Assembly: GCA_017473165.1 (NCBI GenBank)
Contig: JAFUNA010000015.1
Coordinates: 1 to 64,000 of the forward strand
Length of the DNA stretch: 64,000 bases
DNA from: Clostridia bacterium
GTDB taxonomy: Bacteria; Bacillota; Clostridia; Oscillospirales; Acutalibacteraceae
Direction of reading: 5' to 3'
Under the pieces are notes generated by a model that was given only the letters and a program-made list of their open reading frames with translations, did no database searches and had not been told where the DNA came from. Made by a program: the position numbers and the translations under genes. Each line of letters starts with the position of its first letter. Within the stretch, counting starts at the first letter, position 1. Below are positions 3,782-45,517 of the stretch, one piece after another.

Positions 3782-6700
3782 GTGCTGAAACTTAAAAATA
3801 TCGTAAAGGAATACCCAACGGGCGACTCCAAGGTTGTTGCTCTTAAAGGGGTTAATATCGAATTCCGCAAAAGCGAGTTTGTTTCGATTCTCGGTCATTC
3901 GGGCTGCGGAAAAACAACTCTGCTCAACATTATCGGCGGTCTTGATCAGTACACAAGCGGCGATTTGATTATCGAGGGCAAGTCCACAAAGGATTTTAAG
4001 GACGGCGACTGGGACAGCTACAGAAACCATTCAATCGGCTTCGTTTTCCAGAACTATAACCTTATTCCTCACCAGACCGTGCTTTCAAACGTTGAGCTTG
4101 CTCTGACTCTTTCGGGCGTTTCGAAAACCGAAAGACACGAGAGGGCAAAGGCTGCACTCGAAAAGGTTGGTCTGGGTGACCAGCTCAACAAAAAGCCCAA
4201 TCAGATGTCGGGCGGTCAGATGCAGAGAGTTGCAATTGCAAGAGCTCTTGTCAACGACCCCGAAATTCTGCTCGCCGACGAGCCCACGGGTGCACTTGAC
4301 ACCGAAACAAGCGTTCAGATTATGGACCTTCTCAAGGAGATTTCCCATGAAAAGCTTGTTATCATGGTTACTCATAACCCCGAGCTTGCCGAGGAATATT
4401 CAACAAGAATAATCCGCCTTGTTGACGGTAACATCGTTGACGACACAAACCCCTACACAACAGAGGATATTGAAAGAAAAGAAAAATCAAGAGCGGAAAA
4501 GAAATCGGAGAAAAAGGCTGCAAAGGCAATGCCCAAAAAGCCTTCAATGTCATTCCTCACGGCTCTTTCGCTTTCCCTTAACAACCTTATGACCAAAAAG
4601 GGCAGAACATTCCTTACTTCCTTTGCGGGAAGCATCGGTATTATCGGCATCGCCCTTATTCTTGCTCTTTCAAGCGGATTTCAGGCATATATCGACTCCA
4701 TTCAGCAGGAGACGCTTACCTCTTATCCCATAATGATTGAAAAAACCGCCATGGATATGAACGCCATGATGACGGGAATGGCTTCAACCAAGCCCGGTGC
4801 GGTTGAGCACGGTCTTGACAAAGTATATTCAAACACGCTTACATCAAGCATGATGGAATCCTTCACATCGGAAATCTGGGCAAACAATCTTGAAGGCTTC
4901 AAGGAATACCTCGAAAGCGAGGAATGCACAATCGGCGAATACGCCAGCAGCATTCAGTATTCCTACGGCGGCAAGATGAATATTTTTGCATCGGATTTTG
5001 AAAACGGAATAAATCAGGTTTATCCCAGCCCCGTGCTTTCAATGATGGAAACAATGATGGGCAGCATCAATCTGGGCGGAATGCAGATGGATTCCTCCAT
5101 GATGGCAACATTGGAAAAAACCATGAACTCATGGCTTGAGCTTATCGATAACAAGGATATGCTCCGGGACCAGTATGAGGTCGTTCAGGGTGCATGGCCA
5201 AAGAGCTATAACGAGGTTGTGCTTATTGTTGACAAGAACAACGAAATCAGCGATATTGCAATTCAGGGTCTCGGTCTTACAACCTCCGAGGATATGATGC
5301 AGGCATTCATGGCAACGCAGGGCGGCGAGGAATATACGCCCAAAAAGTTTGAGCTTGAATATGACGACATAATCGGAAAAACCTTCAAGATTGTTCTTGA
5401 ACCCGATTATTTTGAGTATAACGAAGAAACAAAAACATGGGACGATATGCGAGGCGACGAGGAATATGTACGCAAGCTTATCGAAAACGGCGAAGATATT
5501 AAAATTGTCGGTATCGTAAGACCCGCAGACGATTCGATTATGGTAACAACCATGGGCTCAATCGGCTACACATCGGAGCTTACGGAGCATATCATTGCCG
5601 CAACCAACGAATGCGAAATCGTAAAGCAGCAGAAGGCAAATCCCGAGGTTGATGTTTTCACGGGAATTCCCTTTGACAAGGAAAAGAGGGGAGAAAAGGC
5701 TGAAGCCGCAAAAGCACCCAAGGCTTCGGGCGTATCCCTTGACCCGCAGATAGATTCAAAAACACAGGCAATTTCAGATTCTGCACCCCTTGCAAGCTCA
5801 ATGAGCCTTGCATCTGCCGCACCCAAAACAAGCTTCACCGATACTCCTGCGGGAATGCCCGATTTCAGCGGTATGCCTGCGGTGACGGAGGACGAAATCT
5901 ATGCGGCAATTGATGAACAGTTCAGCGGCGACGAAGCAACAAAAATGAAGCGTACCGTTGAGCTTATGCTCAAACCCGTATTGAGTCTTTCGGAAAGAAA
6001 AGAACTTATTGGCTATCTTGACGAGATGCTTGCGGGACAGGAAATTGAGGGCATGGGCGAAATCAGCGGTGAGCAGGCGCTTTCTTTCCTTCAGATGATG
6101 GATAAGACAACAAAGCTCAAGATGCTCAACGCAATTATGACGGGACAGTTTGCTCCCACAACTCCTCCCGTAACCGACGGCGGAGAAACAACAACGCAGC
6201 CTGCAAATCCCGAGCAGCCTACGCAGGGTCAGCAGGGCGGCACAACAACTCCCGCACCGCAGAATCCTTCAACGCAGCCGCAGGCACCCGTTGTTCAGCC
6301 TGAACCTGAACCCGAGCCGGAGCCCGAACCTCTTGCAGCAAGCTATGAGGAGGCACTCTCCATTCTCGGCGTAGCGGACCTTGCCGTTCCCCAGTCAATT
6401 TATATTTATCCGCTTGACTTTGAGTCGAAGGATATAATTTCTGCAGAGATTTCAAAATATAACGAAACAGTAACCGCAGACGGCAGAGAAGACGATAACA
6501 TCAAGTATACTGACTACATGGGACTTCTTCTTTCATCGGTTACAACAATCATCAACATCGTATCGTATATCCTTATTGCTTTTGTTGCAATTTCACTTGT
6601 TGTTTCGTCAATTATGATTGGTATAATTACCTACATCTCCGTTCTCGAAAGAACAAAGGAAATCGGTATTCTCCGAGCAATCGGTGCATCAAAGAGGGAT

Positions 6701-6961
6701 ATTTCACGAGTATTCAATGCCGAAACGTTCATAGTGGGCTTTGTTTCGGGTGCATTGGGCATCGGAACAACCCTGCTGCTGACAATACCCATCAATGCGG
6801 TAATCGAGCATTTTACGGGACTTCCCCATATTTCGCAGCTTCCCGCAGAGGGTGCGATAATCCTTGTGGCAATCAGCGTTATCCTGACCCTTATTGCAGG
6901 TCTTGTACCCGCAAAGATTGCATCAAGAAAAGACCCCGTAGAGGCATTGAGAACAGAATAA
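3782..6961 (+). CDS. MacB-type ABC exporter, ATPase fused to FtsX-like permease
   Basis: This is a very large (1059-residue) single-chain half transporter. Residues 1-230 are the ATPase: Walker A GHSGCGKTT (38-46), signature MSGGQMQR, Walker B ILLADEPTGALD and the H-loop MVTHNPE. A Lys-rich linker follows. The first membrane helix is GIIGIALILALSSGFQAY. A roughly 600-residue extracytoplasmic region includes a Met-rich part and a Thr/Gln/Pro linker ending in (PE)n before residue 860. The C-terminal FtsX domain has three helices and the typical ERTKEIGILRAIGAS motif. The GTG at 3782 is preferred because AAGGGGA lies 7 bases upstream; an in-frame TTG at 3758 lacks a site. The family exports lipoproteins, peptides or drugs. 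Control by the divergent TetR protein is likely. Confidence 0.92.
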   Translation: MLKLKNIVKEYPTGDSKVVALKGVNIEFRKSEFVSILGHSGCGKTTLLNIIGGLDQYTSGDLIIEGKSTKDFKDGDWDSYRNHSIGFVFQNYNLIPHQTVLSNVELALTLSGVSKTERHERAKAALEKVGLGDQLNKKPNQMSGGQMQRVAIARALVNDPEILLADEPTGALDTETSVQIMDLLKEISHEKLVIMVTHNPELAEEYSTRIIRLVDGNIVDDTNPYTTEDIERKEKSRAEKKSEKKAAKAMPKKPSMSFLTALSLSLNNLMTKKGRTFLTSFAGSIGIIGIALILALSSGFQAYIDSIQQETLTSYPIMIEKTAMDMNAMMTGMASTKPGAVEHGLDKVYSNTLTSSMMESFTSEIWANNLEGFKEYLESEECTIGEYASSIQYSYGGKMNIFASDFENGINQVYPSPVLSMMETMMGSINLGGMQMDSSMMATLEKTMNSWLELIDNKDMLRDQYEVVQGAWPKSYNEVVLIVDKNNEISDIAIQGLGLTTSEDMMQAFMATQGGEEYTPKKFELEYDDIIGKTFKIVLEPDYFEYNEETKTWDDMRGDEEYVRKLIENGEDIKIVGIVRPADDSIMVTTMGSIGYTSELTEHIIAATNECEIVKQQKANPEVDVFTGIPFDKEKRGEKAEAAKAPKASGVSLDPQIDSKTQAISDSAPLASSMSLASAAPKTSFTDTPAGMPDFSGMPAVTEDEIYAAIDEQFSGDEATKMKRTVELMLKPVLSLSERKELIGYLDEMLAGQEIEGMGEISGEQALSFLQMMDKTTKLKMLNAIMTGQFAPTTPPVTDGGETTTQPANPEQPTQGQQGGTTTPAPQNPSTQPQAPVVQPEPEPEPEPEPLAASYEEALSILGVADLAVPQSIYIYPLDFESKDIISAEISKYNETVTADGREDDNIKYTDYMGLLLSSVTTIINIVSYILIAFVAISLVVSSIMIGIITYISVLERTKEIGILRAIGASKRDISRVFNAETFIVGFVSGALGIGTTLLLTIPINAVIEHFTGLPHISQLPAEGAIILVAISVILTLIAGLVPAKIASRKDPVEALRTE

Positions 6962-6978
6962 AACCAAACACAATTTTC

Positions 6979-7003
6979 AGACCCGCTCTTCGGAGCGGGT
7001 TTC
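6979..7003 (+). terminator. Terminator of the ABC exporter gene (first copy)
   Basis: ACCCGCTC-TTCG-GAGCGGGT (6981-7000) is a perfect 8-bp stem with a TTCG loop followed by TTT. An identical 24-base copy lies at 7245-7268. Confidence 0.85.
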
Positions 7004-7039
7004 AGCTTGTCGAAAAAGTCATTATTAACATGAAAAGTT

Positions 7040-7200
7040 GCTTGACAGAATCGCCTCCCCCTTCAGGGGAGGTGGATTTTGCAAAGCAAAAGACGGAGGG
7101 GTTTATCAGTAGAAACCCTTTATAAATCAACGGTTTCACGCAAAATCCGAAACTCCCTCAGTCACTCCGTGACAGCTCCCTCTTGAGGGAGCCGAAACAA
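7040..7200. repeat. MITE-like palindromic intergenic element
   Basis: This block of nested hairpins includes CCTCCCC...GGGGAGG near 7053-7071, GTCACTCCGTGAC near 7160, and GCTCCCTC-TT-GAGGGAGC near 7175-7194. No coding potential was seen. Similar CTCCCTC/GAGGGAG elements are widespread in gut Firmicutes intergenic regions. It sits between two identical copies of a terminator. Confidence 0.65.
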
Positions 7201-7529: not shown

Positions 7530-9335
7530 TTGAAAAGGAAAGAAATAAAAACAGTAACGGCAATTATTTCAATGGTTATGTGTCTTATTCTTGTCTTTAA
7601 TTCGTCGGCTTTGGCAGTCAACAGTCAAAAAGAATCTCTCACTCTTGAAGACATTTCCATTATACGCCAATGCGGTGTGTTGGAAGGTGAGAGCATTCAA
7701 TTACAGGCAACTTTAAGTCCGAGCGATGCTCCGCTTTCGGGTGTTGAGTGGTCATCAAGCAATCCGAGCGTAATTGAATGTGATAAAAACGGGAGAATAA
7801 AAGGAATTCAGGCAGGAGGATACGCCAATATAACCTGCAAATCCAAATGGAACAATAATATAAGTGATACAATAAAAGTTTATTGCGTTAAACCGTTGGC
7901 ACAACCTATAAAAAGCGGGTTTAAAAATTTTTTTGTTTCCATTTATGGTCAACCTTCAACAGCCGAGCCTATTTCAACATACTTTAACCTTCTGTCATTT
8001 TATGATATTATTTTGGAAGGATTAAAAGTTTTGCTTGGAATGGGTGCAGTATTACCGCTTTCTGCAAACAATACTCTTTCTATATTCACAACCGGCAAGT
8101 GTACCGTTTACGGACAAAGCGGGAAATGGTGTTATGTAAGATTTAATGATACCGTTTCGTCAGACGGATTTGTTCAGTATACAACTTTGAAAAAAGAAAT
8201 TCCCAGTTTTTTATATCTTAACAAAGACAGGATTATAGTTTATTCTGATAGAGTTCACCGTGATGATGCAATATTGAAAGCTGAATATAACGGCAATGTA
8301 ACATGGACTGTTTCTGATGATACAAAAATAGATTTTAACAGAACAACGGGACAGATTACGGGTAATTCGCCGGGAGTGGTAACAATAACCGCAAAAACGG
8401 CAGACGGCATGTCTCAAAAATGCAAGGTGATTTCTGTGTATAAATGGCCTCAGTCATGGAATGTAACACCTTCAACAGATATACAGTTTTATGTAGCACC
8501 GTATACTTTGAATAAATCCGTTGTGCAGAAAACAGACAAATCCTTTCATGTTGTCGGAGATATGGGTGACAACAGCAATTGGTGTTTGGTGAATAACGGT
8601 TCCGAATCATCTCCGTCATATCATTTTGCTAAAATAGATGATTTTTCAACCAAGGGAACGATATCGCAGTATAATAACTTAAACTGGCAATGGCCTGTGA
8701 CAGATGTAAAAAACGGTATAATTCAATCTGTAAAACCAAGATACATAACTTCGCCATATGGATGGAGAGATGATGAACCAATTAAGCATAAGGGAATAGA
8801 TATAACAAACGGAATTTCAAGCAAAAAAGATTTTGAAAATAGTGTTGACGGATACGAAGTTGTTTCAGCTTTTGCAGGAACGGTAATTTATGTCTATGAT
8901 TACACTTTAGGCTATAAATCATGTGGCAACTGTGTTGCAATACAATCAAACGAAAAAGATCCAATTACAGGAAAGTACTATGTTGCAATTTATATGCATC
9001 TAAAATTTAAGCCTTCAGTAAGAGAGAATCAAAAGATATCTGCAAACACTTTACTTGGCTATGCTGGCGACACGGGTAACTCTGGCGGTTCTCATCTTCA
9101 TTTTGAAGTTAACAATCAGAATCTTTCTTATGGGCAAAAATTGTATTATGACGAAGCAAAAAAGCATGAGAAAGTATTTAGCATTGTAATCAATCCAATA
9201 TTTTTTTATATGAACTATTACAATTTGCCCAATGACAATTCTGACAAAATAACCATAAATCCAGGTTGTTCAGCAATGAGTTACAGAAAACCGTTATGGT
9301 ACGGAGATGACATAAAGGAGACAAAAGAACCATGA
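7530..9335 (+). CDS. Secreted M23 family metallopeptidase with Ig-like domains
   Basis: The 601-residue product starts with a signal peptide (about 1-30, ending SALAVNS). A BIG2-type Ig-like domain spans roughly 33-120 (SGVEWSSSNPSVIECD and GGYANITCKS), then an SH3-like stretch near 205-235, and a second Ig-like domain near 245-320. The C-terminal M23 (LytM) endopeptidase domain is near 400-560. Zinc ligands are visible in HKGIDI and SHLHFEV, with YMHLK between. The family cuts peptidoglycan cross-bridges or stem peptides. The start is a TTG with AAGGAGGG 9 bases upstream; a nearer ATG at 7525 is out of frame and stops after two codons. It overlaps the next gene by 4 bases. Base composition is more AT-rich than the flanking genes. 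Confidence 0.9.
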   Translation: MKRKEIKTVTAIISMVMCLILVFNSSALAVNSQKESLTLEDISIIRQCGVLEGESIQLQATLSPSDAPLSGVEWSSSNPSVIECDKNGRIKGIQAGGYANITCKSKWNNNISDTIKVYCVKPLAQPIKSGFKNFFVSIYGQPSTAEPISTYFNLLSFYDIILEGLKVLLGMGAVLPLSANNTLSIFTTGKCTVYGQSGKWCYVRFNDTVSSDGFVQYTTLKKEIPSFLYLNKDRIIVYSDRVHRDDAILKAEYNGNVTWTVSDDTKIDFNRTTGQITGNSPGVVTITAKTADGMSQKCKVISVYKWPQSWNVTPSTDIQFYVAPYTLNKSVVQKTDKSFHVVGDMGDNSNWCLVNNGSESSPSYHFAKIDDFSTKGTISQYNNLNWQWPVTDVKNGIIQSVKPRYITSPYGWRDDEPIKHKGIDITNGISSKKDFENSVDGYEVVSAFAGTVIYVYDYTLGYKSCGNCVAIQSNEKDPITGKYYVAIYMHLKFKPSVRENQKISANTLLGYAGDTGNSGGSHLHFEVNNQNLSYGQKLYYDEAKKHEKVFSIVINPIFFYMNYYNLPNDNSDKITINPGCSAMSYRKPLWYGDDIKETKEP

Positions 9336-10111
9336 AAAAACTTATAGCATTAATAGCAATTTTAGTCTTGTTAGTTTTAACCGTTTCTTGCGAAAAAGAA
9401 AAGGAAACCAACAAAACAACAACTATAACAGAAAGCAATCAAACATATGAAACATTTTCATCAACAACAGCGTATAAAGTTGATAACTTGAAAGAAAACG
9501 AACTCCAAAATGATAATGGCGGCGGATATATAGAATCTGGAAAATATAGACAGAGATATTATAATGTTCCATATGATTTTGTCATTCTTGTGGGTGAAAA
9601 AGAGTTTGATAGATGGTATGATGAAATATATGAATTCGATCCTGACAAATCTCAAATTGTGGCTTTTATTCAATATTTCAACATATCCAAAGAGGTTTTT
9701 GAAAAAACTAATTTGCAAATGGCGAAAAGTTTTGCTGAATTTAATCCTACAATGAGACCATTGGATTATGAAAATCAGCAAACATATGAAATTTATAATG
9801 CAGACATAATCTATACTTTTGATGATGAAATTATCAACGAGTATTATTTAACACCCGATTATCCGTATTGTGCAGATTTTGAATATGAAGCTGCTATTGA
9901 AAGAGGCACATATCAGACTCAAACTAAAGACTGGGTTGATATTGAAGCTATGGAAGCGGAAATAATTGCAAAATACGGTGAGGCTGAAATTGTGACAGAT
10001 GCTGCAGAGCAAACCACATCTGAAACGGCAGGCGAAATTACAACCGCCGCTGACACCGCCATTCCCGAAACTCAAATCACACCCGAAACCGATGTTCGGA
10101 TAACCGAATAA
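9332..10111 (+). CDS. Lipoprotein coupled to the M23 peptidase gene
   Basis: This 259-residue protein has a lipoprotein signal (hydrophobic 4-18, then VSC at 18-20). A short Thr-rich spacer follows, then an acidic, Tyr-rich region (about 60-205) without a domain I recognise, and a Thr/Ala/Glu C-terminal tail. Its ATG overlaps the peptidase stop codon (ATGA), so the two are translationally coupled and probably work together at the cell surface. Like the peptidase gene it is AT-rich. Function unknown. Confidence 0.8.
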   Translation: MKKLIALIAILVLLVLTVSCEKEKETNKTTTITESNQTYETFSSTTAYKVDNLKENELQNDNGGGYIESGKYRQRYYNVPYDFVILVGEKEFDRWYDEIYEFDPDKSQIVAFIQYFNISKEVFEKTNLQMAKSFAEFNPTMRPLDYENQQTYEIYNADIIYTFDDEIINEYYLTPDYPYCADFEYEAAIERGTYQTQTKDWVDIEAMEAEIIAKYGEAEIVTDAAEQTTSETAGEITTAADTAIPETQITPETDVRITE

Positions 10112-40449: not shown

Positions 40450-40483
40450 TTGACAATTGACAATTAATCTGTTAATATATTAA
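40450..40483 (+). promoter_or_regulatory. Promoter of the SCP2-aminotransferase-transketolase cluster
   Basis: TTGACA at 40450 is 17 bases from TAATAT at 40473. A second TTGACA at 40457 makes a TTGACAA direct repeat. The -10 lies in the palindrome TTAATATATTAA (40472-40483), a possible operator. Confidence 0.7.
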
Positions 40484-40516: not shown

Positions 40517-41275
40517 ATGATTGATCAGAAAACTCTGGCATATATCAATCTTTACGGCGTTCTGGGTACTCTCGAAAACCTTTGTGAGCTCGCTCCCGAA
40601 GCAGGCAGCATTCTCACAAACAAAAAGCCCATCTCAATCGGCTTTGAGGTAAAGGGCGGCCCCAGCGCAACAATCACCTTCAAAAACGGAAAGTGCAGAA
40701 TGGAACAGGGCTGTGCAAAGTGCGACGTCAAGCTTCCCTTCAGCTCATGCGAAAAATTCAACGGTCTTATCGACGGAACAACTACTCCCATCCCCTCAAA
40801 GGGATTCCACCACATCAGCTTCCTTCTTAAAGACTTCACAAAGCTTACCGACCTTCTCAACAAGTATATGCGTCCCGAGCCCGCTGACCTTGAAGACGAG
40901 GATTTCTTCAGAATCAGCACAACTCTTATGATGTATACAATTTCCGTTGCAATCGCACAGATTGGCAACAACGACGAAATCGGCAAGTTCTCCGCACAGC
41001 AGATGGTTGACGGCGAAATCGCTTTCAGCATCAAGGACGGACCTGCCGCAACGATAAGAGTCAAAAACCACAGACTTCTTGCAATCAAGAAGCCCAGCGA
41101 TGCTCCCAGAGCAATCATGGAATTCAGCTCAATCAAGCTTGCAAGAGATTTGTTTGACGGCAAGGTTAACGCAATTGCCTGCGTAGGCAGCGGCGATATC
41201 GTCATGAAGGGCATGATTTCGATGCTCGATAACCTTAACAGAATTCTTGACAGAGTTGCTCTGTATCTTGCATAA
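40517..41275 (+). CDS. Double SCP2-like domain protein A
   Basis: The 252-residue product has two units with the sterol-carrier-protein-2 pattern. Each has a strand pair with GPSATITFKNGK or GPAATIRVKNHR, then acidic or polar strands, then a helix before GLIDGTTTP or LFDGKVNAIACVGSGDIVMKG. SCP2 domains bind lipids or other hydrophobic molecules in a tunnel. No signal peptide is seen, so it is cytoplasmic. AAAGGAGG precedes the ATG. It is first of five genes, the last of which is a paralogue with the same layout. SCP2 membership is a motif-based inference; the ligand is unknown. Confidence 0.7.
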   Translation: MIDQKTLAYINLYGVLGTLENLCELAPEAGSILTNKKPISIGFEVKGGPSATITFKNGKCRMEQGCAKCDVKLPFSSCEKFNGLIDGTTTPIPSKGFHHISFLLKDFTKLTDLLNKYMRPEPADLEDEDFFRISTTLMMYTISVAIAQIGNNDEIGKFSAQQMVDGEIAFSIKDGPAATIRVKNHRLLAIKKPSDAPRAIMEFSSIKLARDLFDGKVNAIACVGSGDIVMKGMISMLDNLNRILDRVALYLA

Positions 41276-41288
41276 GGAGGTTTCTGAA

Positions 41289-42551
41289 ATGAGTATGAAA
41301 ATCAATACACACGCTAAAAGTGCCGAGCTCTTTCAGAGAGCCGCAAAGGTAATTCCCTCGGGTCTTTACGGTCATCAGGGCCCCGCAGAGGGCTGCTGCA
41401 TCCCCGTTTCCGCTTACCCTCTTTTCAGCCAGAAAGCACAGGGTACATATTTCTGGGATGTTGACGGCAACAAATACATAGACTATATGTGTGCATACGG
41501 TCCCAACGTTCTCGGCTACAATGACCCCGACGTTGACAAGGCTGTTATGGAGCAGATGAAAATTGAAAACTGCGTTACCGCTCCCTCAACAAAGATTATC
41601 GAGTTTGCAGAGCTTATGGTTGATACCGTAGCTTCGGCAGACTGGGCATTCTTTGCAAAGAACGGCGGCGACACAACAACCGCAGCTATCATGACCGCAA
41701 GAGCAGCAACCCACAGAAAGAAGATTATCTTCGTTAAGGGTTACTACCACGGCGTTGCTCCCTGGTGCCAGAAGATTGACTATCCCGGCGTTCTTCCCGA
41801 GGATGTTTCAAACAACCTTTATGTTGATTGGAACGATTTTGAGCAGCTTGAAAGAATCGTTGAAGAAAACGAAGGTGAAATCGCAGCCTTCATTTCAACT
41901 CCCTATATGCACGGCAACTTTGTTGATAACGTTCTTCCCGCAGAAGGCTATTGGCAGAAGGTACGCAAGCTCTGCACCGACAAGGGTATCGTTCTTATCG
42001 TAGACGACGTTCGCTGCGGCTTCAGACTTGACCTTGCAGGCTCCGACCATCACTACGGCTTTGAAGCTGACCTTATCTGCTTCTGTAAAGCACTTGCAAA
42101 CGGCTGGAACGTTTCCGCACTCTGCGGTAAGGATTGGCTCAAGAGCTCAATCAGCGGTCTTTCCTATACAGGCAGCTATTGGATGAGTGCAGTTCCCTTT
42201 GCGGCTGCAATCGCTTGTATCAACAAGATGAAGGAAATCGACTTTCCCAAGTTCTGCCTCGAAAAGGGCACAATGCTCACCGACGGTCTTAAGGCTGCCG
42301 CTGCAAACAACGGCTTTAACCTTAGCGTTACAGGCGAGCCCGCACTTTTCTATCTCATGCTTAAGGATGACGATTCCCTTATGCTTCATCAGGAATGGAT
42401 TGCAGAGGTTGTCAAGAGAGGCGTCTATATGACCAACCACCACAACCACTTCATCAACGCATCACTTTCCGACGAGGATATCAAGCACACAATCGAGGTT
42501 GCGGAGGATGCTTTCAAGGCAGTTCGCAAGAATCATCCCGAACTCGGTTAA
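41289..42551 (+). CDS. Class III aminotransferase (GSA aminotransferase-like)
   Basis: The 420-residue PLP enzyme belongs to fold type I, class III. It shows KVIPSGLYGHQGP at the start, YIDYMCAYGPNVLGYNDPDV, AKNGGDTTTAAIMTARA (phosphate-binding), DDVRCGFRLD with the PLP-contacting Asp, and the Schiff-base Lys in CFCKALANGWNVSALCG. It resembles glutamate-1-semialdehyde aminomutase but is not hemL by context, since no haem genes are near. AAGGAGG lies 9 bases before the ATG at 41289. It probably transaminates a sugar-derived aldehyde or ketone that the neighbouring transketolase makes or uses; the substrate is unknown. Confidence 0.88.
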   Translation: MSMKINTHAKSAELFQRAAKVIPSGLYGHQGPAEGCCIPVSAYPLFSQKAQGTYFWDVDGNKYIDYMCAYGPNVLGYNDPDVDKAVMEQMKIENCVTAPSTKIIEFAELMVDTVASADWAFFAKNGGDTTTAAIMTARAATHRKKIIFVKGYYHGVAPWCQKIDYPGVLPEDVSNNLYVDWNDFEQLERIVEENEGEIAAFISTPYMHGNFVDNVLPAEGYWQKVRKLCTDKGIVLIVDDVRCGFRLDLAGSDHHYGFEADLICFCKALANGWNVSALCGKDWLKSSISGLSYTGSYWMSAVPFAAAIACINKMKEIDFPKFCLEKGTMLTDGLKAAAANNGFNLSVTGEPALFYLMLKDDDSLMLHQEWIAEVVKRGVYMTNHHNHFINASLSDEDIKHTIEVAEDAFKAVRKNHPELG

Positions 42552-42581
42552 TTATACATAATTTTAAAGGAGGAATTTCCA

Positions 42582-43451
42582 ATGGCATTAACCAAACAGG
42601 AATGGCTTGAGCTTGAAAAGCAGGCTCACGAACTCCGCAAGCTCTGCCTTGACACAACCTATTGGGCAGGCAGTGCTCACATCGGCGGCGGCATGAGCGT
42701 TATGGATATGCTCACCATTCTCTACTACAAGTACATGAAATACGACGTTGCAAATCCCCAGTGGGAAGACAGAGATCGCTTCATCCTCAGCAAGGGTCAT
42801 GCAGGCGTTGCTCTTGCAAGCCTTGTTTGCCATGTTGGTTTCGACGATAAAGAAAAGCTCAAGACCTTCAACCTTTCAAACTCAACAATGGGTATCCACC
42901 TTGACTCAAACAAGGTTAAGGGCGTTGATGCTTCAACAGGTTCACTCGGTCACGGTCTTTCAATCGCTCTCGGAACAGCTCTTGCAGCAAAGGTTCTCGG
43001 CAAGGACTACAAAACCTTCTGTATCCTCGGCGACGGCGAATGCGACGAAGGTTCAAACTGGGAAGCAGGCATGGCTGCAGCTCATTTCAAGGCAGATAAC
43101 CTCATTTCCTTCGTTGACCGCAACAAGTGCATGATCGACGGCAGAACAGAGGATGTTATGAAGCTTGAACCCCTTGCAGACAAGTGGCGTTCATTCGGCT
43201 TCATCGTTAAGGAAGTTGACGGCCATAACTTCAACGAGCTTGCCGATGCAATCGACTTTGCTCTTGAAAACAAGGGTGCTCCCGTTATGATTATCGCCGA
43301 CACCATCAAGGGCTGCGGCGTTGATTACATGGAAGACGACTATAAGTGGCATTACGGCGCACTTAACGAAGAAAAATATGAGCTTGCAAAGGCAAGTCTT
43401 GAAAAATACTATGCAAAACGCGTTGCTCGCGCAGAAAAGGAGGGCATCTGA
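42582..43451 (+). CDS. Transketolase, N-terminal (ThDP-binding) subunit
   Basis: The 289-residue product is the pyrophosphate-binding half of a split transketolase. His and Gly motifs are present: AHIGGGMSVMDMLTILYY, LSKGHAGVALASL, GSLGHGLSIALG. The ThDP/Mg2+ motif ILGDGECDEGSNWEA ends in FVDRNKCMIDG. AAAGGAGGA precedes the ATG, and the other half follows after 2 bases. Such split enzymes transfer a two-carbon ketol unit between sugar phosphates. Its position between aminotransferase and SCP2-like genes hints at a specialised donor or acceptor. Confidence 0.93.
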   Translation: MALTKQEWLELEKQAHELRKLCLDTTYWAGSAHIGGGMSVMDMLTILYYKYMKYDVANPQWEDRDRFILSKGHAGVALASLVCHVGFDDKEKLKTFNLSNSTMGIHLDSNKVKGVDASTGSLGHGLSIALGTALAAKVLGKDYKTFCILGDGECDEGSNWEAGMAAAHFKADNLISFVDRNKCMIDGRTEDVMKLEPLADKWRSFGFIVKEVDGHNFNELADAIDFALENKGAPVMIIADTIKGCGVDYMEDDYKWHYGALNEEKYELAKASLEKYYAKRVARAEKEGI

Positions 43452-43453
43452 TT

Positions 43454-44464
43454 ATGGCAGGCGGATTAACCTATACAGCAACCGAATCAACAGCGTTCTC
43501 AACCGCTGAAATTTACGGTAAGGCTCTCTGCGAGCTTGGCGAAAAGCATCCCGAGGTTGTTGCTCTTACAGCTGACCTTGGCAAATCAACAAAAATCGGT
43601 ATGTTCGGCGAAAAATTCCCCGACAGATACTTCAACGTAGGTATTGCAGAACAGAATATGTTCGGTATGGCAGCAGGTATGGCAAGAGCGGGACTTGTTC
43701 CCTTCCTTTCAACCTTCTCGGTTTTCGCTTCATTAAGAAGTGCCGACCAGCTCCACACAGACATCTGCTATCAGAACGTTAACGCAAAAATCATTGCTAC
43801 CCACGCAGGTACATCCTTCGGTCAGGCAGGTTCAACTCACCACGCAATCTGCGACATGGCAGTTGCACGTTCAATCCCCAACCTCACAGTTATCTGCCCT
43901 GCTGACGGTCTTGAAACCTACAACGCAGTTCATGCTGCATACGATAATTTCGGACCCTACTACATCCGTATCAACAGAGGCTTTGACCGTGTTCTTTATG
44001 ATTCAACAGACTACGGCTTTGAGGTTGGTAAGGCTGTTACAATCAACGAAGGCTCCGACATAACAATCATTGCCTGCGGTTCATGCGTATTCCAGGCATA
44101 TCAGGCTGCAAAGTTCCTTGAAACCAACGACGGTCTTAAGGTAAGAGTTCTCAATATGCACACAATCAAGCCCATCGACAGAGAGGCTATTGTTAAGGCT
44201 GTTATGGATACACGCCGCATTATCACCGCTGAAGACCACAATGTTATCGGCGGCCTTGGTTCCGCAGTAGCAGAAGTTATCGTTGAAGCAGGTAAGGGCT
44301 GTGCGTTCAAGCAGCTCGGTATCCCCGACAAGTTTGCACCCATCGGTCTTCACGAGGACATCATGTCCAGCCTCGGCATCGACCAGAACGGTATTATTGC
44401 CGCTGTTCGTGAGGTTATGGGTAAGGACTTCGAGCTCGACGACGACTGGGACGACGAAGTTTAA
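43454..44464 (+). CDS. Transketolase, C-terminal subunit
   Basis: The 336-residue product holds the pyrimidine-binding and C-terminal transketolase domains. GIAEQNMFGMAAGMA contains the catalytic Glu. ASLRSADQLHTDICY and ATHAGTSFGQAGSTHHAICD follow, with PADGLETYNAV after them. The C-terminal domain begins near residue 195 (ITIIACGSCVFQAYQAAKFL). It needs the preceding subunit to form the active site. Coupling is tight, with two bases between genes. Confidence 0.93.
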   Translation: MAGGLTYTATESTAFSTAEIYGKALCELGEKHPEVVALTADLGKSTKIGMFGEKFPDRYFNVGIAEQNMFGMAAGMARAGLVPFLSTFSVFASLRSADQLHTDICYQNVNAKIIATHAGTSFGQAGSTHHAICDMAVARSIPNLTVICPADGLETYNAVHAAYDNFGPYYIRINRGFDRVLYDSTDYGFEVGKAVTINEGSDITIIACGSCVFQAYQAAKFLETNDGLKVRVLNMHTIKPIDREAIVKAVMDTRRIITAEDHNVIGGLGSAVAEVIVEAGKGCAFKQLGIPDKFAPIGLHEDIMSSLGIDQNGIIAAVREVMGKDFELDDDWDDEV

Positions 44465-44544
44465 TTTGAGTTCTTTTCACTTTCTCGTTCGGTCGTGTAT
44501 ACTGATACACTTCCCTCACTGCGAAAGCGAAAATAATCTCAAAT
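44464..44544 (+). repeat. Large imperfect stem-loop between transketolase and SCP2-like genes
   Basis: ATTTGAG (44464) pairs with CTCAAAT (44538). The inner parts TTTC.CTTTC.CG and CG.AAG.GAAA also pair. The centre is GTGTAT-ACTG-ATACAC (44495-44510). It has no T-run, so it is more likely an mRNA processing or stability element than a terminator. Confidence 0.55.
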
Positions 44545-44573
44545 CTAAAAACTAACCGAAAGGAATGATTATT

Positions 44574-45380
44574 ATGGCTTCGAGAGAAGATATTTTAACC
44601 AATAAAATTTTCCTTTGTGCGGTTCTTCCCCTTATCAAAACAATCGCTTCCGATGACCCCAAGCTTGCAAAGAAATTTGAGCACGCTCATGCGGTTATTC
44701 AGGTAAGTGCCAAAGACCCCGACGCTCCCGAAGGCAAGTTTTCAACTCATTTTGTTGTTAACTGCGGCGAATGGGAGTGCCATACGGATAAGGTAACTGA
44801 CAATGCTCACATTGAACTTGAATTCAAGAGCATTGAAACCATGAACGCATTCTTCAAAGGAAAAATCGGTCCTTCAACGCTTCCCGCAATGAAGGGCATA
44901 ACAAAGAAGCCCGCAGTTTTTGCGGCATTCATGATGACACTTCTCAAAATGTCATCCCTGCTCACCGCAACCGAAGCTCCCGCAGACGAAGAAACAAAGA
45001 AATTGCTTGTTAAATGCTATTTCTATCTTCTTTCAACGGGCATCAGCACACTCAACAAGCATGGTCACGAAGAAATCCACAAGTGGACTCTTTCAAGCCC
45101 CGACAGAGTTTATGCCTGGGCGGTTGACGGATATCCCGAAATTTCGGCTTATATCCGCATAAAGGCAGGTAAGTCAAAGGCAGGCAGAGGCGTTTACAAG
45201 CGTGCTCTTCCCTTCTTCACCATGAGATTTGACTGCCTTGACAGCGCACTCGGAATTCTTATGGGCACAGCTGATATGCTTGAATTCACAAAGGAAAGCA
45301 AGCTTATCATGGACGGTGCACCCGAATTCGGCGCACAGATCGGCGACTATATGATGAAGGTCGGCGACTACGCAAGATAA
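44574..45380 (+). CDS. Double SCP2-like domain protein B
   Basis: The 268-residue product has the same layout as the protein at 40517. A first beta-rich unit with THFVVNCGEWECHTDK leads to IETMNAFFKGKIGPSTLPAM, followed by a helical connector. A second unit has EISAYIRIKAGKSKAGRGVY, then FFTMRFDCLDSALGILMGTA and a C-terminal GAPEFGAQIGDYMMKVGDY. Sequence identity to protein A looks low, so the duplication is old. The ATG at 44574 is chosen, with AAAGGA 9 bases upstream; the earlier ATG at 44565 abuts that site. No signal peptide. It is the last gene of the cluster. Confidence 0.65.
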   Translation: MASREDILTNKIFLCAVLPLIKTIASDDPKLAKKFEHAHAVIQVSAKDPDAPEGKFSTHFVVNCGEWECHTDKVTDNAHIELEFKSIETMNAFFKGKIGPSTLPAMKGITKKPAVFAAFMMTLLKMSSLLTATEAPADEETKKLLVKCYFYLLSTGISTLNKHGHEEIHKWTLSSPDRVYAWAVDGYPEISAYIRIKAGKSKAGRGVYKRALPFFTMRFDCLDSALGILMGTADMLEFTKESKLIMDGAPEFGAQIGDYMMKVGDYAR

Positions 45381-45460
45381 ATTCTGATTGTGATAAATGT
45401 GACGGATCGTCAGCATTTCTCAACAATCTGACAGAAATACAACTAACATTATTAAAAATG

Positions 45461-45494
45461 CAAGGATTGATGTTTCGTCAATCCTTGTTTTTTT
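45461..45494 (+). terminator. Terminator of the SCP2-transketolase cluster
   Basis: CAAGGATTGA (45461-45470) pairs with TCAATCCTTG (45478-45487), followed by TTTTTTT. Confidence 0.93.
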
Positions 45495-45517
45495 ATTTAC
45501 TGACAATTTCTGCGTTA

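Follow-up and report, generated by a model that had tools for sequence, protein, structure and literature searches.

What could be made by a cluster in which a class III aminotransferase and a split transketolase stand between two SCP2-like proteins? This question is raised by five genes, here named A to E, of a gut Clostridia bacterium, which lie in a window of 64 kb (the whole stretch of DNA that was analysed). The preliminary description of this DNA envisaged a transketolase adding two carbons, an aminotransferase adding nitrogen, and SCP2-like proteins carrying a hydrophobic intermediate, a logic with which the computational findings presented here are consistent.

Layout and conservation of the five genes

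The cluster consists of five complete open reading frames, all on the plus strand and at the position given beforehand, flanked by candidate expression signals:

40450..40478, + strand: promoter-like site upstream of A (TTGACA, 17 nt, TAATAT, with TG 5' of the second hexamer), a consensus match only
40517..41275, + strand: gene A, predicted double-domain SCP2-type carrier, 252 aa
41289..42551, + strand: gene B, predicted FumI-like class III PLP aminotransferase, 420 aa
42582..43451, + strand: gene C, predicted ThDP-binding N-subunit of a specialised split transketolase, 289 aa
43454..44464, + strand: gene D, predicted pyrimidine-binding and C-terminal subunit of a specialised split transketolase, 336 aa, with an acidic DDDWDDE tail
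44574..45380, + strand: gene E, second predicted double-domain SCP2-fold protein, 268 aa
45460..45488, + strand: intrinsic terminator-like hairpin with T-run, 13-pair stem, downstream of E

The spacings A-B, B-C, C-D and D-E measure 13, 30, 2 and 109 nt. As listed, the frame of B opens at 41247, within A, and the ATG at 41289 is preceded by a ribosome-binding-like AAGGAGG; for E, an alternative in-frame start is possible at ATG 44565. The stretch 45455-45500, which holds the terminator-like hairpin, folds at -17.9 kcal/mol (z -7.5). The region contains 14 promoter-like sites, compared with 6.2 in shuffles, and because some of them lie inside the cluster, a single transcript covering A to E can be called plausible and nothing stronger. 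Thus, the one promoter and one terminator described earlier stand as a site before A and a hairpin after E, but the promoter before A is not the sole candidate. Similarly, the codon usage of highly expressed genes attributed to the cluster is found in A to D, which rank 6, 12, 7 and 2 among the 56 ORFs of the window by C-ending codons, close in rank to the genes for ribosomal protein L1 (first) and an EF-G (fourth), but does not extend to E, which is only 19th.

The five genes recur as a unit. All were present in the same order in 65 of 80 fetched loci, the final gene itself being truncated by a contig end in some of these. The other 15 comprise 11 cut by contig ends, one with D and E elsewhere in the genome, and three without the special D and E, where a special D has at least 60% identity to that of the window (no fetched D fell between 46 and 64%). 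These loci are the 80 best among 174 retrieved through their similarity to B, with 11 short loci (L001-L011) excluded from the unit count, and the count is therefore biased towards close relatives. Flanks of the full loci are mostly unlike one another, so the arrangement is beyond chance. A sixth cassette member was also sought by clustering the flanks of the 80 loci; the top non-cassette cluster occurred in just 13, which leaves no general candidate.

In an order-wide sample of 295 genomes, A and B were found in the identical 11 genomes, and D and E in the identical 6 of those 11. The survey covered A, B, D and E; C adjoins D in all six, and in G052 (60% complete), A-B and C-D-E lie on separate contigs. 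The expectation that the genes stay together was thereby borne out, and the opposite outcome, rare co-occurrence, did not arise. Distances among 30 dereplicated loci out of 59 full ones correlate at 0.87 for C-D, 0.57 for A-B and 0.31 for B-D, the top of 500 permutations being 0.21.

Protein families and the altered transketolase

Protein A matches the Pfam SCP2 profile (PF02036) at 25.4 bits, above the cut-off of 21.3. The Pfam search with E gave no match, SCP2 included, and only 3 of 28 E relatives showed a weak one (best 0.0078). The predicted models, with mean pLDDT of 94.1 (A) and 92.9 (E), both match SCP2 structures in comparisons that covered mainly the C-terminal half (118-252) of A and both halves of E, and UbiJ is among the fold matches of both. 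Among PDB sequences searched with the A and E profiles, no SCP2 match was found. The outer proteins are accordingly SCP2-like as first supposed, A by profile and by its predicted fold, E by its predicted fold, the profile search for E being negative.

Protein B belongs to Aminotran_3 (PF00202, 148.2 bits). Among the PDB matches listed, FumI (6hbs) is the best at 304.5 bits, followed by GSAM at 165.7 bits; some of the class III solved relatives listed are C-6' aminotransferases. The FCKALANG segment of B aligns with WGKCFANG of FumI, and its lysine is taken here to be the PLP-lysine site. B proteins are 36-42% identical to FumI, and 69 columns are invariant across 95 of them, with the same residue in FumI at 60 of the 69. 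B is therefore, by nearest solved relative and common invariant residues, a FumI-type class III PLP aminotransferase, with putative activity on a long-chain 2-amino alcohol. Assignment as HemL (glutamate-1-semialdehyde aminomutase) was rejected, as TIGR00713 gave 209.9 bits against an NCBIfam cut-off of 527.3, and the NCBIfam PigE model matches at 92.9 against a cut-off of 850. According to the available part of PMC2933618, FumI uses pyruvate to accept the 2-amino group from hydrolysed fumonisin B1; this part names the substrate as a 2-amino-...-3,5,10,14,15-pentol, without a 1-hydroxyl; fumonisins are described as sphinganine-like in the part of PMC9858248 consulted.

C carries Transketolase_N (PF00456), and D carries Transket_pyr (PF02779) and Transketolase_C (PF02780). 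Their closest solved relatives are 6yak for C (245.6 bits) and 6yaj for D (274 bits), and D is also similar to C-terminal parts of 1-deoxyxylulose-5-phosphate synthase (DXS). The comparison covered 72 D proteins and 35 generic counterparts, and 72 C proteins and 33 generic ones; the D set includes the window copy and holds 70 distinct sequences, or 22 at 90% dereplication, where the generic 35 become 30. The catalytic His33, His73, His106 and His257 of C are present in 72 of 72, and the catalytic Glu is also retained. Judged by these residues and the ThDP domains, C and D together are a transketolase.

The substrate contacts are altered. At the position of E. coli D469, all 72 D proteins have Ala (Ala125), whereas 31 of 35 generic subunits have Asp; at that of R91, the salt-bridge partner from the other subunit, all 72 C proteins have Asn (Asn97), and 31 of 33 generic ones Arg. 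The phosphate Arg, kept in 34 of 35 generic subunits, is kept in none of the 72 (Ala18 in 69, Thr in two, Ser in one), and where E. coli has Gly262, every C has Tyr (Tyr258), compared with Gly in 31 of 33. The second split transketolase of the same host has R, D, R and G at these four positions. Additionally, W332 and D334 of the acidic tail of D occur in 72 of 72, with a gap at W332 in all 35 generic proteins. Ser, His and Arg remain at the S385, H461 and R520 positions and are able to bind phosphate. On sequence grounds, C-D is not an ordinary sugar-phosphate transketolase, as the phosphate Arg and the Asp469/Arg91 pair are each found in 0 of 72. In the part of PMC5073344 consulted, D469 and R91 form a salt bridge, and D469T is among the variants evolved towards non-polar aldehydes.

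Serine palmitoyltransferase-like genes and the proposed pathway

Genomes that carry A-B without the remaining genes provide a further clue. In the 295-genome sample, a gene resembling serine palmitoyltransferase (SPT) was present in 5 of 5 A-B-only genomes and in 0 of 6 A-E genomes. Overall, 41 of the 295 have such a gene at E<=1e-120, 36 of them without A-B; at E<=1e-75, there was no match in the A-E genomes (G000, 88% complete, and five others, including G052). The search was confined to this sample, with G516 and G457 of the phylum sample and loci L061 and L069 outside it. The family distribution confounds this exclusivity: five of six A-E genomes belong to family f1, where SPT occurs in one sampled genome only (G257), and the A-B-only genomes belong to f14, f16 and f20, where SPT is common.

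In three of the five A-B-only genomes, A-B, the SPT-like gene and a ketosphinganine-reductase-like gene form one run: A-B-SPT-reductase in G112 and G126, and SPT-reductase-A-B in G270. In the PDB, the SPT-like protein matches SPT best, at 435.8 bits; it and the reductase-like protein both stay under their NCBIfam cut-offs (536 against 640, and 229 against 400, respectively). The wider surroundings were compared for 15 SPT-reductase loci, the three with A-B and 12 others. Apart from SPT, the reductase and A, the last present in three loci, no gene cluster except that of B occurs in as many as three of the 15, and one of the three proteins in it is a distant aminotransferase encoded near SPT in L214. 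The gene calls missed B of L175, which tblastn detected. The B tree was built from 51 rows, out of 96 before dereplication at 90%, with every A-B-only row retained and FumI as a long branch; rows cut by contig ends and L030 count as A-E, and L073 equals G041 in sequence. In this tree, 8 of 10 A-B-only rows (7 genomes) fall into a single clade (100/97) that lies inside A-E rows. This nesting is expected if SPT and reductase displaced C-D-E. The phylum sample yielded seven A-carrying genomes, of which two, G516 and G457, carry A-B with no C-D-E in its vicinity and do not belong to the main A-B-only clade.

We consider the chances evenly balanced that the cluster is a sphingoid-base pathway without SPT. 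In its first step, the C-D transketolase would transfer a two-carbon ketol from a ketose phosphate or hydroxypyruvate to a long-chain aldehyde and so produce a 1,3-dihydroxyalkan-2-one. B would then use alanine or glutamate to aminate this ketone at C2, which yields a 2-amino-1,3-diol of the sphinganine type. A and E, as predicted carriers, may bind the aldehyde, the ketone and the base, all of them insoluble, and deliver them to the soluble enzymes, by analogy with UbiJ. Substrates, chain length, direction, stereochemistry and final lipid are all putative in this scheme. FumI kinship, the lost phosphate and acceptor-hydroxyl contacts and the SPT/reductase-like neighbours point to the lipid backbone itself rather than a head group, and codons of the highly expressed type, in a cassette that encodes neither a regulator nor a transporter, would suit constitutive synthesis. 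The fuller account falls slightly short of even: some Clostridia would make sphingoid bases without SPT by a naturally re-tooled split transketolase that forms the C2-C3 bond from a fatty aldehyde and a ketol, a FumI-like aminotransferase and two channelling SCP2 proteins, and in one lineage SPT with ketosphinganine reductase would have replaced this route at a later stage.

Several observations were counted against this reading: the retained S385/H461/R520 positions, the sub-cut-off SPT and reductase scores, the 36-42% identity to FumI, the weak agreement of B-D distances (r 0.31), the 36 of 41 SPT-like genomes without A-B, the confounding of the SPT exclusivity by family, and the position of G516 and G457 in the B tree. 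Moreover, the cassette has no aldehyde-forming or N-acylating gene, and B seems redundant, or a deaminase, in genomes where SPT and reductase already make sphinganine. A search of open PMC papers (bioRxiv being outside its scope) found nothing relevant, among the matches listed, on a transketolase route to sphingoid bases or related topics. The available part of PMC11914097, on phytosphingosine of Flavonifractor plautii, contained no biosynthetic gene and serves only as a lead; that of PMC11334938 held nothing bearing on Clostridia.

The main rival, which we regard as doubtful, is sphingoid-base catabolism. Here, B would deaminate an imported base, converting pyruvate to alanine, and C-D would cleave the 1,3-dihydroxy-2-ketone into a fatty aldehyde and a ketol passed to an aldose phosphate, with A and E carrying lipids. 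FumI is described as deaminating in the accessible part of PMC2933618, both reactions are reversible in principle, and the sampled A-E genomes have no SPT, so that the bases could be external. Among the 295 genomes, some have A-B and lack D and E, but every genome with D and E also has A-B, a pattern that would suit an earlier arrival of B. Nevertheless, a catabolic A-B would be futile where it shares a run with SPT and reductase, as in G112, G126 and G270; the cassette has no transporter, regulator or aldehyde dehydrogenase, and its codons are biased in the manner of genes with constitutively high expression.

Less likely still is a different amino lipid, in which the transketolase and B would build some long-chain amino alcohol distinct from sphinganine (e.g., a 1-deoxy, branched or threo base) alongside SPT products and not in their place. 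The retention of A-B beside SPT-reductase in three genomes means that the product of B need not be sphinganine, and both the missing 1-hydroxyl in the FumI substrate (PMC2933618, in part) and the resemblance of D to DXS would fit. However, the top matches are transketolases rather than DXS, which predicts a 1-hydroxyl, and the nested replacement pattern is simpler with one common product.

The remaining alternative concerns water-soluble products. The amino-sugar or aminopolyol unit first suggested, with the SCP2 proteins merely as scaffolds, is very improbable: small polar substrates are common for transketolases and class III aminotransferases, and C-6' aminotransferases are among the listed solved relatives of B, but FumI outscores all other solved relatives among the matches listed, the phosphate-Arg and acceptor-hydroxyl contacts are gone, two SCP2-type proteins accompany the transketolase, and SPT-like and ketosphinganine-reductase-like genes adjoin A-B elsewhere.

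The preferred reading, synthesis of sphingoid bases, bears on a 2025 statement, in the part of PMC12134224 consulted, that eukaryotes and every currently known sphingolipid-producing bacterium depend on SPT. The cluster looks like a previously undescribed route to make, or possibly take apart, a sphingolipid backbone. If this is true, some SPT-less gut and rumen Clostridia may still build or degrade such backbones and would be overlooked by SPT-based genome surveys. For biocatalysis, it would also provide a transketolase and a transaminase that naturally work together on lipophilic aminodiols, with the C-D subfamily as a natural counterpart of the laboratory D469 change, here together with its partner R91.

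Comparison with known systems

Transketolases have been coupled with transaminases to give aminodiols, and in prodigiosin synthesis PigD and PigE combine a ThDP enzyme with a class III aminotransferase acting on a lipid-derived aldehyde. The cluster shares this pairing; it differs in that PigD uses pyruvate and conjugate addition, and B lies far under the PigE cut-off.

Canonical sphingoid-base synthesis relies on SPT and 3-ketosphinganine reductase (PMC9278070, in part), and a PKS-fed variant uses the SPT-active SgaB (PMC12134224, in part). E. coli BL21 has no de novo sphingolipid synthesis of its own (PMC9278070, in part). The proposed product class, a 2-amino-1,3-diol base, would be the same in A-E as in the SPT route, and in three genomes A-B is accompanied by SPT/reductase-like genes. 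In the SPT route, serine and an acyl thioester undergo a decarboxylating PLP condensation followed by reduction, whereas A-E would proceed by ThDP ketol transfer and transamination with unrelated enzymes. Among single components, FumI resembles B in class, identity and invariant columns but serves fumonisin degradation in Sphingopyxis (PMC2933618, in part). UbiJ binds hydrophobic intermediates of ubiquinone synthesis in its SCP2 domain for other enzymes; UbiJ and UbiT have one such domain, unlike the double-domain A and E, and belong to another pathway (PMC6747719, in part).

The two-chain split-gene transketolase of Carboxydothermus (6yaj/6yak), the nearest solved relative of C and D, takes bulkier aldehydes according to the accessible part of PMC7661550, yet 6yaj is like ordinary transketolases in having the Arg and the GED motif, and its aligned part has no acidic tail. 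The engineered E. coli transketolase S385Y/D469T/R520Q and its precursors are similar in that a change at D469, where D has Ala, opened the enzyme to non-polar aldehydes; they differ in arising by laboratory evolution, in acting on aromatic or short aldehydes and in keeping R91 intact (PMC5073344, in part).

The cassette and its conservation

The host genome comprises 2.11 Mb in 38 contigs and is 88% complete. On the forward strand at 40517-45380 it carries five ORFs, all complete and placed as in the preliminary description:

40517-41275, forward strand: gene A, SCP2 (Pfam)
41289-42551, forward strand: gene B, Aminotran_3 (Pfam)
42582-43451, forward strand: gene C, Transketolase_N (Pfam), N-subunit of a split transketolase (TK)
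43454-44464, forward strand: gene D, Transket_pyr / Transketolase_C (Pfam), C-subunit of the same TK
44574-45380, forward strand: gene E, no family match in the Pfam search

Sequence scanning and folding upheld the promoter-like site and the terminator around the cassette, so that a single transcript is plausible, and the codon use ascribed to highly expressed genes holds for A-D, E being less extreme. Models of A and E, built from relatives' alignments of 41 and 28 rows, respectively, were both confident, and Foldseek and VIA-align placed both predicted structures in the SCP2 fold; the two profiles also match each other (probability 94.8). The proposal that SCP2-like proteins stand on both sides of the cassette is borne out, for E by fold, without a Pfam match, and for A mainly in the C-terminal half. 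Elsewhere in the window, at 7530-10111, two ORFs show odd codon use, with 25 and 9 ATA codons and few C-ending codons; the first carries M23 peptidase and Big_2 domains, and the second has no Pfam match.

With B as the query, the best 80 of 174 loci were fetched from genomes in GTDB; going by the record titles, these are with few exceptions MAGs labelled Clostridia, Oscillospiraceae, Ruminococcaceae or similar, many of them from ruminant gut. This survey of co-occurrence found all five genes, in the order A-B-C-D-E, in 65 of these best 80 loci, while the flanking genes mostly differ. A contig end cuts 11 of the 15 loci without the full cassette, D and E of L030 are located elsewhere in the same genome, and a genome-wide search of L061, L069 and L073 found neither E nor a special D (at least 60% identity to the D of the window). 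Among 295 genomes of the order, A occurs in 11 and B in the identical 11, and special D and E share 6 genomes, all within these 11. Among 398 genomes of the phylum, A occurs in 7, with B adjoining it in every one: the whole cassette is found in 4 (the host G000, G602, G456 and G682), A-B-C-D broken off by a contig end in G427, and A-B, with C-D-E not nearby, in G516 and G457. Neither sample contained D or E without the A-B core. The cassette is sporadic and consists of an A-B core and a C-D-E block.

In L058, A-B-C-D lies on a short contig of a MAG labelled Propionibacteriaceae (Actinomycetota), by either horizontal transfer or mis-binning. An opposite-strand pair, encoding a class III aminotransferase (491-508 aa) and a class II aldolase-domain protein (~406 aa), adjoins gene A in 9/80 loci (L071, at 4268-7074, L032, L067, L074, L078, L080, L088, L089 and L091) and lies further upstream in L034; the aldolase domain in L071 falls in two stretches.

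Acceptor-site residues of the split transketolase

Within the fetched loci, 72 special D were aligned with 35 ordinary split-TK C-subunits (22 and 30 after 90% dereplication); a second alignment set 72 C against 33 ordinary N-subunits. Both special subunits retain their catalytic residues, four catalytic-site His in C and Glu66 in D. The position of the phosphate-binding Arg (human R318), counted off an alignment with solved TKs, holds Ala in 69/72, Thr in 2/72 and Ser in 1/72 special D, whereas 34/35 ordinary subunits have Arg. At the human D424 / E. coli D469 position, Ala (72/72) replaces the Asp of 31/35 ordinary subunits; the position counted as E. coli R91, the salt-bridge partner of D469 in the other subunit, is Asn in 72/72 C and Arg in 31/33 ordinary proteins, and the residue after the fourth His is Tyr (72/72) rather than Gly (31/33). 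The special TK retains the Ser, His and Arg of the S385, H461 and R520 positions (E. coli numbering), which would leave room for a phosphorylated donor. The same special residues occur in distant relatives (C of G682 and G427, partial D of G427, and G145); the ordinary ones are found in the second split TK of the host.

PMC5073344 describes the D469-R91 salt bridge in E. coli TK, the contact of S385 with phosphate, and D469 variants that accept non-natural aldehydes. Because the phosphate Arg and the D469-R91 pair are lost and the catalytic residues kept, C-D is predicted to transfer a ketol unit to an aldehyde that lacks the 2-hydroxyl and the phosphate, for instance a fatty aldehyde. Special D also bears a conserved acidic tail, DDDWDDE, which is absent from 35/35 ordinary subunits and may be a peptide on which A, E or B docks.

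Serine palmitoyltransferase-like genes beside the A-B core

The hypothesis predicted sphingoid substrates, and A-B genomes without C-D-E were therefore inspected. In G112 and G126, of one genus, A-B is followed by a gene resembling serine palmitoyltransferase (SPT) and then by a ketosphinganine-reductase-like gene; in G270, of a different family, both lie upstream of A-B. The SPT-like protein scores 536 bits against the NCBIfam SPT model, below its cut-off of 640, and 435.8 bits against the Sphingobacterium SPT structure 3a2b, and the reductase-like protein scores 229 bits against the KdsR model, below the cut-off of 400. Called at E<=1e-120 (by our count of rows, next weaker row 5e-86), the SPT-like gene is present in 41/295 genomes of the order, and the reductase-like gene adjoins it in 27/30 SPT loci (L182-L211). 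In the 295-genome sample the SPT-like gene occurs in 5/5 A-B-only and 0/6 A-E genomes, a contrast that is confounded by family membership; the two different operon arrangements, seen in two families, are free of this confounding.

In a tree of 51 B rows, eight A-B-only rows (seven genomes) form a single clade (100/97) that sits within the A-E rows, neighbouring L060 (99/97); the remaining two fall outside it. On this tree 3 changes account for the label, compared with a mean of 9.2-9.3 after shuffling. Given this nesting and the SPT-like gene in A-B-only genomes, a lineage having SPT-reductase probably lost C-D-E, and the two sets look like alternative partners of A-B.

Synthesis, breakdown and known systems

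The best explanation, to which we give an even chance, is SPT-independent sphingoid-base synthesis, in which TK would act first and B second. On this reading the replacement by SPT-reductase would make sense, as would the carriers, the biased codon use and the absence of transport genes; the survival of A-B beside SPT is left unexplained. Breakdown by the same chemistry reversed, B before TK, would account for A-B standing alone and would match the direction described for FumI, a fumonisin-degrading aminotransferase, but it makes little sense inside SPT operons and seems rather unlikely. As for other products, another amino lipid is improbable, and a soluble amino sugar very much so.

A literature search of published open papers found none joining TK to sphingoid-base synthesis or other sphingoid-base metabolism. 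According to the accessible part of PMC12134224, all currently known sphingolipid-producing bacteria rely on SPT, the PKS route that it describes being no exception, and the order of Clostridia with SPT-like genes is not named there among known producers. The component families of the cassette are already known; no description seems to exist of their combination or of the proposed chemistry. Among solved structures, B is nearest to FumI (304.5 bits, next 165.7). B proteins share 36-42% identity with it, and of the 69 alignment columns that do not vary in 95 B proteins, 60 have the same residue in FumI. The described direction of this nearest relative is deamination of a long-chain 2-amino compound: according to PMC2933618, hydrolysed fumonisin B1 gives up its 2-amino group to pyruvate.
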